64,000 nt of DNA from Amoeboaphelidium occidentale. Taxonomy: Eukaryota; Aphelidiomycota; Aphelidea. Under the pieces are notes generated by a model. It was not told the DNA's origin and made no database searches. It saw nothing but the letters and a program-made list of their open reading frames with translations. This document shows, one piece after another, positions 55,869 through 59,020 of this stretch. The first letter of the stretch is position 1. The number at the start of each line of letters is the position of its first letter. The translations under genes were made by a program, and so were the position numbers. The DNA is taken from the NCBI GenBank assembly GCA_023515795.1, contig JALGPX010000033.1, positions 1 to 64,000 on the forward strand, in the 5' to 3' direction.

Positions 55869-55947
55869 ATAGAAACTGTGAGGTCACATGGAAGAGCATA
55901 TGGTGTGCAAAGCCCCTTTTAACACTTTTGATCAGAATCACCACATA

Positions 55948-56502
55948 ATGATACTTAACACCTTGCCAATAATGATATTCATTTGCCTACTACTTCAAAT
56001 ATGCCTCAACGTTGTTGCAGCGAAAGATACTTCATCCATGGGAAATATACAGATTATACGTCCTGTCCAAAATACCGTGATGGTTGCTACTCAACGACTA
56101 TACGTCGAGTACAGAGTCAGCTCGCCTTTGAAGAACACGAAAGTGCAATTGACTTTATTCAGAAGATCATGGCGTGGGAAAAAGGTGAAGATTATGGAAT
56201 TTGAACCGCTGGATTCCGGTGTTCAGAAGCATTACTTGGATACGATTGATATGAAGACAAGTTTTGATTACTTTCTATTCGCCACGCTCATTGACGCTGA
56301 TGGTAAAGAAGTCCCAAACAGCGAGACGCAAAGTCCTGCCTTCTCAATTTATTCAACAGTGGACGCAAAGCGACATGGATTTCCTGTCAATGAACCACGA
56401 CCATATCAATTGTTTGATAGTGGAGCGTCTCTCAGTTACTCCCAGGGCATCTTAACGGGCTTGGGTGCAGCGCTTTCATTTAGCTTTTATGCGCTTGTTT
56501 AA
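55948..56502 (+). CDS. Secreted Ig-like protein, GPI-like end (Kre9/Knh1-type?)
   Basis: 184 residues from ATG 55948, where MILNTLPIMIFICLLLQICL forms a signal peptide; earlier in-frame ATGs at 55888 and 55900 would extend it with a non-hydrophobic stretch. The mature part begins IQIIRPVQNTVMVATQRLYV and continues as a beta-sandwich-like stretch (VQLTLFRRSWRGKKVKIMEF, LFATLIDADGKEVPNSETQS). The I-x-x-P...V opening and domain size resemble the Kre9/Knh1 N-terminal domain of fungal wall proteins, a tentative match. The hydrophobic end ILTGLGAALSFSFYALV suggests a GPI signal. Confidence 0.65.
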   Translation: MILNTLPIMIFICLLLQICLNVVAAKDTSSMGNIQIIRPVQNTVMVATQRLYVEYRVSSPLKNTKVQLTLFRRSWRGKKVKIMEFEPLDSGVQKHYLDTIDMKTSFDYFLFATLIDADGKEVPNSETQSPAFSIYSTVDAKRHGFPVNEPRPYQLFDSGASLSYSQGILTGLGAALSFSFYALV

Positions 56503-56513
56503 TAGATTAAACT

Positions 56514-59020
56514 TTATTTTGCCGACTTCAACAACTTCGATATCAGCATTGCGAGACTGAAAGTATCACCAGCCTTTAGAGCTTCCAAAGTCTTAAATTT
56601 GACAACATCACCTCTCAAGGCCCTGAATACTTCAGGAGCAACAAAGTTTGCGCTCTTAGCATCAATTCGATATAAAGGAAAAGCAATTGTAGCATCCTCA
56701 TCAGTGAAACATTGCTGCAAACATCCAAACCCAGATAAGTACCCAGTGATAGATCCCACGGAGTTCCTCTCAATGTAAACGTTTCTCAGTTTTACAGTGC
56801 GATGGACATATCCGTTATCATGGAGATCCTTGAGAGCGTTAGCAACATTTGTAATAATGTTGTGCAGATCAGATGATTTCATCGGGGATACTCCACTCTG
56901 TGAAAGATACGTTTCTAAAGTACCTAATGAGTAGTAAGGAAAAATAATCGTGAATGGATTAATTGAAAAATGTAGCATTTGAACGATGCCTTTTGAGCTT
57001 GAAAGGGCCGACAATACTTCGACCTCCTCCCAGAAGGAATCCTCAACTCCAGCTTGAAGTTTGTTCATAGATGATCCAAAAACTTTAACAGTGACCTTAT
57101 CGACCGATCCGTCATGTTTCTTAAGTAAACCATTGAACAAAGGAACACCATTTTGAGTACCAATTTGATTAATAACATCGATGAGTTGACCATCAATTTT
57201 CAAAGTTTGAGGAGCGTTGTCCTTGGCCTTTTGCACACTAACAGAACTGTACTTCACTAAAGGAGTAGGCACATTGATGGCACTGAATTTGTCCGAGTTG
57301 CTGGAATTCATTGTCGCCTGATCTGGTTTGCTAACATCAGCTGTGGTACCCTGAGTATCCTGTGGTGTTGCAGCAAATATCGCCTCCTTCAAGCTTTGTC
57401 TTCGAATATACTGTAAGAGAATTAGGACCAGAACTACAACTAAAAGAGATGCGCCACCAGCAATTCCAATAATCGCCCCAGAAGGAAGACTTTGCTCAGT
57501 CACAGGTTCTTCCGCAGCAAACAGCGTTCTTGTTCCTTGTTGGATTGATGTTGCTGCTTGAGTAGTCGTCGACGAAGTTACTTCGACCTCGTCCTGCATT
57601 AATTCTGGATCTTCTACATCGTCTTCAAATAGCCAAAAATCGTTCATGATCGCAGAATCGGCCTTAAACCCCCCATGAAAATACATGATTTTTGTTTCAT
57701 TGTTGTAAATATATCCAGCGTTAGACTTGGCTGGCGGATAATTAGAGCTTGATACGGAACCTAGTATAAGCAGTTAAAAAAAGCAATTCTTACCTTTGTT
57801 TCCGTAAGATCCTTGTCCGTTTGGCTGCGTGCTTCCACCAACCCATGCAAACTTAAAATACTCTAAGCTGAATACCCACAAATCACTCATGTATGCACGA
57901 GTAGAGCCTCTGATGGACAGGCCTCCCATAAGATATAGCCTCTTCTTCTCTGTATTCACGTAAAGAACACCTCCAAGCCTTCCCCGAGGAACAGCCAATG
58001 ATGTATAAGTATTTCTAGGCGGAATCCTACCTAAAGAGCCTATTTCTCGTGTTCCTCCTATCCAAGTCCAGGTGGTATTCGATAAATTGAAACACCAAAC
58101 ATCATTCAACACTCCTTCGCCCAAAAACGTTATTCCTTCCCCGCCAAACATGAACAAAGCCCTTTCATTAACGTCGTAAGTGAAACAACTTTGCACTCTT
58201 CCTCCTGGATAATTTTCTGCAGCACTTTCGCGTACTTTTCCGTACTTGCCAGCAGAGTTTTTGACACCAGGACCGTGAATCCATGTCCAATTTCCAGATG
58301 TCACGTTGTAAACCCATGTGTCAGAAAGGCGCAATATATCACTGGACTGAGGTTCATAAGTTGCTCCACCCCAGAAGTAAAACGACCTGGTGTCAGGATC
58401 ATAAAAGTGGACAAAGCCATGCACAGCAGGCGGCTCATTTGTTGTAGCGGGGACGTTTTGAATTCCATAGTTGCCTTGAAAATTCGTAGCAATAGTTCCT
58501 CCAACGTAGGTGTAGAATAGTGACTGAAAGTTGAAAGAAAATATCGTATTTGTGACAATACTCCTCGAGAAAAGACCACCAAATATGAACATGTTTCCGG
58601 TGGTTCTATCAATGAAGCTTCCATGCTGAGTACGACCACCAGGTTGCACTGAGAAGTGAGGGTTTCCTCTTCTGACTGCATTCATCGGTGCACTAAAACC
58701 TGTCCCATCACCTCCGTACCAAGTATAATGATAGTTGGTTAGATCAAAAGACCACATGTTGTTGGAGTAAGATCCAGTTTCACCTGCATAACCTCCGAAC
58801 CAATAGATCCTCTTCTTGTAGTAGATCATATCATGGTCCGTTAACCCGGTAGTGTACAGATCTGGACTGCTTACATTCCTGGTACCTGAAGGTCAAAAGG
58901 CTTATGATATATATTACCGAATTCTCCATACGTTGCGGCTGGCGAAGATTGCCCTGATATCCAAACGAATGCCGTATTCACAGTGGAACAAAATGCAATG
59001 AGAAGGATGAATAAGAACAT
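56514..59020 (-). CDS. Kelch-ectodomain receptor with transmembrane pseudokinase
   Basis: 813 residues in three exons (58918-59020, 57794-58885, 56514-57760) joined by introns of 32 and 33 nt. Signal peptide MFLFILLIAFCSTVNTA, then about six kelch blades with the W-x-W-x-x-G / N-P-x-x-R pattern (FVWISGQ, YTWYGGDG, WTWIHGPG, WTWIGGTRE, FAWVGGSTQPNGQGSYG). An acidic Ser/Thr linker and one TM (AIIGIAGGASLLVVVLVLIL, about residues 495-520) follow. A protein-kinase-like domain covers about 590-813. The VAIK-type lysine is present in VTVKVFG and the APE-like VAPEVF is intact. However, the catalytic HRD is HRTVKLRN and DFG is SGFGC, so both key aspartates are missing. It reads as a receptor-type pseudokinase. 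The MAP3K gene lies 99 bp upstream on the same strand. Confidence 0.88.

Follow-up and report, generated by a model that had tools for sequence, protein, structure and literature searches.

A predicted kelch-propeller receptor pseudokinase of Amoeboaphelidium occidentale and its relatives with kinase domains that end after helix αF

Receptor kinases are characteristic of animals and plants. In the animal receptor pseudokinase HER3 (ErbB3), the HRD motif reads HRN and the activator face lies on helix H; the plant pseudokinase DRIK1 has a full kinase domain, and the RIO kinases are soluble and active. Kelch propellers work inside the cell in LZTR1 and KLHDC2, and attractin is a kelch membrane protein without a kinase domain. 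Here we describe a gene of Amoeboaphelidium occidentale, a parasitoid that kills algae, that departs from all of these. It lies at positions 59020–56514 (minus strand) of a 64,000-nucleotide stretch of contig JALGPX010000033.1 (assembly GCA_023515795.1; the whole stretch is called the window below), and its predicted product is a membrane protein with a kelch ectodomain and a kinase-like domain that has lost both catalytic aspartates and stops after helix αF.

A. occidentale is filed by NCBI under Fungi, Aphelidiomycota, and aphelids are described as the sister group of Fungi (PMC10608142). The general view is that fungi lack tyrosine kinases (PMC2838846), and the receptor-like kinases of aphelids and fungi are reported to differ (PMC10608142, citing Mikhailov et al., 2022, Curr Biol). 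The existence of receptor-like kinases in aphelids is thus already on record, in the same group of organisms; the comparison with that work is through the one citing sentence. An earlier note on this DNA had stated that receptor kinases and pseudokinases are rare in fungi, a statement that needs qualifying here, because the genome encodes a large receptor family and the organism belongs to the aphelids, not to the core fungi.

By its translation, the gene encodes a predicted type I cell-surface receptor pseudokinase; we judge the chances to be about even that this reading, together with the binding and signalling role proposed below, is correct. A signal peptide, an ectodomain, one membrane helix and a cytosolic kinase-like domain were found in one protein, as the earlier note had read it. 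Two kelch families (PF24681, 5.4e-24; PF24981, 1.5e-17) and two kinase families (PF07714, 1.1e-15; PF00069, 4.4e-13) scored above the Pfam cut-off, and no RIO family was among the 12 Pfam matches listed for the protein. Hydropathy exceeded 1.6 only at residues 1–19 and 495–513; the second peak (2.92) marks a single transmembrane helix (residues ~491–515; 57411–57485), which is followed by RR. The six propeller blades proposed earlier were counted by hand in the strand list of a model of a paralogue, P0001, rather than in one of the window protein itself.

The kinase-like domain (residues ~597–813; 56517–57167; PF07714 from residue 597) was modelled as a kinase fold, with a five-strand N-lobe plus αC and a C-lobe with αE, activation segment and αF (pLDDT 86.8). 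Profile search and structure prediction, both suggested as checks, gave the expected families and fold. The last element of the model is a helix (262–288 of 289) at the place of αF, and subdomains X–XI (helices G to I) are absent. Sequence matches in the PDB were to tyrosine kinases (EGFR, JAK2, TYK2) and B-Raf alike. The VAIK lysine, K624 (57084–57086, in the context VKVFG), and the APE motif (residues 773–775; 56631–56639) are kept, whereas HRD reads HRT (718–720; 56796–56804, in the loop HRTVK) and the DFG position reads SGFG (741–744; 56724–56735); both catalytic aspartates are therefore lost. The αF aspartate, D797 (56565–56567; from translation and alignment), is kept and stands 16 residues before the end of the protein. 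The observation that prompted this work is thus real and its motifs were correctly read, but the loss is larger than described: HRD and DFG are both changed, and the C-lobe is in addition cut after αF, which had gone unmentioned.

The protein resembles HER3 and other animal receptor pseudokinases in being a single-pass receptor with a folded kinase-like domain in which the HRD aspartate is replaced. It differs in its kelch ectodomain, in the loss of the DFG aspartate as well, and in the absence of helices G to I, so the HER3-type activator face is missing. DRIK1 is likewise a receptor-like pseudokinase, whose title names missing ATP binding (PMC7158045), but it has an unrelated ectodomain and belongs to the plant receptor-like kinase group. 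RIO kinases have a trimmed kinase fold without subdomains X and XI, and also without VIII (PMC2564912); the domain studied here shares the first two losses but keeps the APE segment (VIII) and forms part of a receptor. It is also unlike the intracellular LZTR1 and KLHDC2 and the kinase-less attractin.

Splicing at two GT...AG introns gives a protein of 813 residues, and re-splicing upheld the coordinates, the strand and both introns as first reported. Exon 1 (58918–59020) encodes the signal peptide (residues ~1–17; 59020–58970) and the first strand of the propeller, as judged from splicing, the hydropathy peak and register with intron-less paralogues. Beyond intron 1 (58886–58917; 32 nt), exon 2 (57794–58885) supplies the bulk of the propeller; intron 2 (57761–57793; 33 nt) leads to exon 3 (56514–57760), which by splicing and Pfam carries the end of the propeller, a Thr/Ser-rich stalk, the membrane helix, the juxtamembrane segment, the pseudokinase and the stop codon. 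Three paralogues (on contigs C96 and C123) lack both introns and read the kelch part, the membrane helix and the kinase through single open frames of 827–863 codons. The two parts therefore belong to one gene, as proposed, and separate kelch and kinase genes are excluded.

A genome search with exons 3 and 2 found close relatives in a five-gene array on C123 and on C96 and C186. A further relative on C45 (19136–22183, plus strand; L037:2136–5183) has the ectodomain of an ADAM/reprolysin-like metalloprotease (HELGHNFGSNHDD; Reprolysin_2, 5.6e-16), followed in the same open frame by a membrane helix and the same pseudokinase module, which is cut by the contig end; its cytosolic part opens with the same GTQNG loop, lysine and glutamate as the window gene. 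With the window gene (on C74), the branch comprises nine genes. HRD and DFG read HRN/SGFG in the C96 gene, HRN/AAFY in the C186 gene, and HRN/TGFG, HRN/TGLG, HRN/TGFG, HRN/TGMG and HRN/SAFN in the array. Both aspartates are lost in all eight genes with a readable catalytic region, and in both environmental orthologues found (P0002, of a C123 gene, and P0003, of the C96 gene); a sequencing error behind HRT and SGFG, which the earlier note had allowed for, is therefore excluded.

Other kinase features persist across the branch: the VAIK lysine and the αC glutamate in 9/9 genes, and the histidine of HRD, the APE motif and the αF aspartate in 8/8 each. The retained lysine and glutamate, together with a catalytic-loop lysine, are what would be expected of a divergent kinase in which nucleotide binding or weak, non-standard catalysis persists, and the receptor pseudokinase HER3 has HRN too. 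We nevertheless consider such activity improbable, given that the HRD and DFG aspartates are both gone and that in the alignment the glycine-rich loop is GTQNG, against mostly GGGGE or similar in intact relatives.

Between orthologues, the pseudokinase is 96.3% (209/217) and 95.9% (209/218) identical, compared with 96.1% (219/228) for the kinase of an active-kinase pair; the corresponding ectodomains are 97.4%, 98.3% and 96.6% identical. Constraint on the pseudokinase is therefore similar to that on an active kinase in this set, and a little weaker than that on its own ectodomain. In a tree with ten pseudokinase rows (eight from this genome, with the protease receptor included and C123b left out, plus the two environmental orthologues), these rows formed one clade (support 100/100), and the closest relative of the window gene was the C186 gene (99/98). 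We give almost no credence to the idea that this is a receptor-kinase pseudogene undergoing decay. The stem of the clade is long (2.8 changes per column) and the homologue search showed no transcript or gene model of the window gene, but its frame is open, its introns are clean, the branch has nine members, and the changed motifs persist in the orthologues of two paralogues, with ~96% identity across the domain.

The cut after αF extends well beyond this branch. We drew a family of 88 proteins by hand from the match lists (P0001–P0012 and P0068–P0143), excluding 63 other kinases in the lists. Motifs were readable in 82, of which 80 end 67–76 residues past the DFG position (~70 in the window protein), with PW, QW or AW within the last 12 residues in 76/80. 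The two exceptions are P0122 (20 residues, a short model) and P0142 (145 residues). Outside the pseudokinase branch, the HxD aspartate is kept in 79/79 and the DFG aspartate in 78/79 of the readable proteins. Six proteins yielded no motif by pattern: P0125 ends at PWY like other cut proteins, P0132 has HCDLN and is divergent near its end, and P0109, P0133, P0139 and P0143 stop ahead of the catalytic loop. Among kinase frames in individual loci (partly the same genes), 24/25 end after 69–77 residues, the remaining one being an ordinary kinase, and the motif pattern missed three further cut frames (two at L038, one at L040). The PF00069 match ends at profile position 191–199 of 263 in 9/9 cut frames, at 192 in the window protein and at 259 in P0142.

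We regard it as very improbable that the missing part of the C-lobe is present in an unrecognised exon. Introns of ~32 nt occur in this genome and are easily missed, and a dedicated hidden Markov model (HMM) of the C-tail missed two positive controls, the C-terminal parts of the MAPKKK-like gene in the window and of a kinase at L040; it succeeded only with P0142, which had been among its training sequences, and its result is not counted. Against a hidden exon, only 11 nt separate the stop codon of the receptor from that of a convergent frame, which ends at 56502, has no Pfam match and is not proven to be a gene. Inspection by eye of three frames, up to 420 nt past 21 frames, showed no kinase tail, and the ten NCBI-named models examined stop at the same place as the cut frames. 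A Pfam search in which 123 of 318 candidates were scored detected no C-terminal profile piece beside 17 cut frames picked by eye; the same search detected separate C-terminal pieces for at least six other kinases (on C2, C188, C100, C151, C198 and C7).

With nine outgroup proteins tried and the four without a motif dropped, the family was separated from the outgroup with support of 98/99, and of 100/100 in a second tree from which a long plant row (P0147) was also removed. The nine predicted receptor pseudokinases, with their swapped ectodomains, thus form one clade inside the family of cut kinases. The environmental protein P0142 (653 amino acids) is a related membrane kinase with a complete C-lobe and may be near the condition that preceded the cut; its ectodomain matched no Pfam family at E 0.01, and BLAST outside the kinase and its flank returned chance matches only. 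Constraining the cut rows together made the best tree 5.0 log units worse (p-AU 0.284), and the placement of the long-branched P0142 is unsure, so the cut may have arisen once or several times.

The genome searched comprised 11.3 Mb in 204 contigs. The published A. occidentale assembly is larger (13.56 Mb, N50 73,507, largest scaffold 366,412; PMC10608142), and our counts are therefore lower bounds. One homologue search alone returned at least 23 NCBI-named A. occidentale proteins of the family. Kelch ectodomains with intact motifs occur on C143, C76, C162, C73 and C123 (at L028, where the kelch match sits in a separate frame upstream). Two kelch receptors on C188 (L038:90–2462 and L038:2638–5091, both minus strand) have partly altered motifs, HCDVK with SDFS and HCDIS with TDFR, and possibly represent a separate drift toward pseudokinases. 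Dozens of WD40-repeat proteins combine a membrane helix with a shortened kinase domain whose motifs are intact (L034, L035, L042, L045–L049 and many of P0068–P0140). Because an N-terminal hydropathy peak was present in 5/14 NCBI-named models of this type tested, their WD40 part is probably extracellular in at least those five. Homologue searches, which depend on shared five-letter words, covered 5.8 billion proteins, and in one of them only the best 7994 candidates were scored. Strong matches were confined to A. occidentale and environmental proteins, with weaker ones (≤96 bits) to other kinases, including those of bacteria, brown algae, a ciliate, a sponge and a plant. Among the matches listed, no other aphelid or fungus appeared by name, which does not imply absence from A. 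protococcarum or other aphelids.

EGFR/HER3-type activation needs helix H of the activator, whereas the side-to-side pairs of RAF and KSR, and JAK, make contact through the N-lobe and αC. Lacking helices G to I, the window protein offers no EGFR-type activator face, and contacts through the N-lobe and αC, as in RAF/KSR, are likelier. The propeller would bind a ligand or a surface, which might belong to the host alga, the parasitoid's own cells or the matrix. The dead kinase would then signal by binding, serving either sister receptors with intact catalytic residues or a downstream kinase as partner or scaffold. The obvious partners would be the active sister receptors, one of which is in the same array, and a non-catalytic partner or scaffold acting on them through its N-lobe is the role that seems most likely to us. 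More broadly, though we rate this somewhat less likely than not, Amoeboaphelidium may have evolved its own class of receptor kinases ending after αF, in which dozens of intact kelch and WD40 receptors would be joined by a dead branch that pairs with them.

Several points weigh against this interpretation. A few kinases without the canonical residues remain active, and the loss of catalysis here is read from motifs. Phosphorylation is not certain even for the members with intact motifs, since helices G to I are missing from almost every member of the family. In both orthologous pairs conservation is slightly lower in the pseudokinase than in the ectodomain, and the domain might do no more than anchor the protein structurally. 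The homologue search returned no protein identical to the window gene's product, nor did we see a public transcript or gene model for this gene. An adhesion or uptake receptor, in which the propeller grips the algal wall or prey and the kinase fold is a cytosolic anchor without kinase-type signalling, seems to us unlikely, though a serious contender. Kelch membrane proteins whose open frame has no kinase domain do exist (L039:2996–4741, L041:756–2471 and L025:2273–3376, the last with a tail rich in Pro and Met), and the ADAM-like protease ectodomain of one sister suggests work on surfaces. However, the Lys–Glu pair, the histidine, the APE motif and the αF aspartate are kept in every readable member, which is more than would be expected of a plain anchor.

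Searches of an open-access library, in which most subscription journals are missing, turned up no description of the pseudokinase branch or of the αF cut. The available parts of PMC8657485, PMC2564912, PMC10608142, PMC10406608 and PMC2838846 do not describe these genes, and that of PMC8657485 contains no kelch, WD40 or metalloprotease. The interest of the window gene is raised by its surroundings, a nine-member pseudokinase clade in a lineage-specific family of cut receptor kinases. A sister lineage of Fungi with a large set of propeller receptors and a pseudokinase branch would amount to an independent evolutionary trial of receptor signalling, and these receptors are candidates for host recognition or uptake by a parasitoid of algae. 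The near-uniform cut would make it possible to test directly what share of the C-lobe is required for kinase signalling: if the intact members phosphorylate, a receptor kinase can do without helices G to I. The branch could likewise show whether a pseudokinase acts without the helix-H face of the EGFR family, and if it does act as proposed, it would be an N-lobe activator that evolved independently of HER3 and KSR.

Two neighbours of the gene in the window were also noted. The convergent open frame (55882–56502, plus strand) has hydrophobic stretches near both ends and looks like a GPI-anchored protein by eye. Directly upstream, on the same strand as the receptor gene, lies the MAPKKK-like kinase gene (59123 to ~62956, minus strand), which we take to be of the SSK2/MEKK4 type; its presence alone is no evidence of a shared pathway. 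Its kinase domain is split across two open frames, probably by a short intron.
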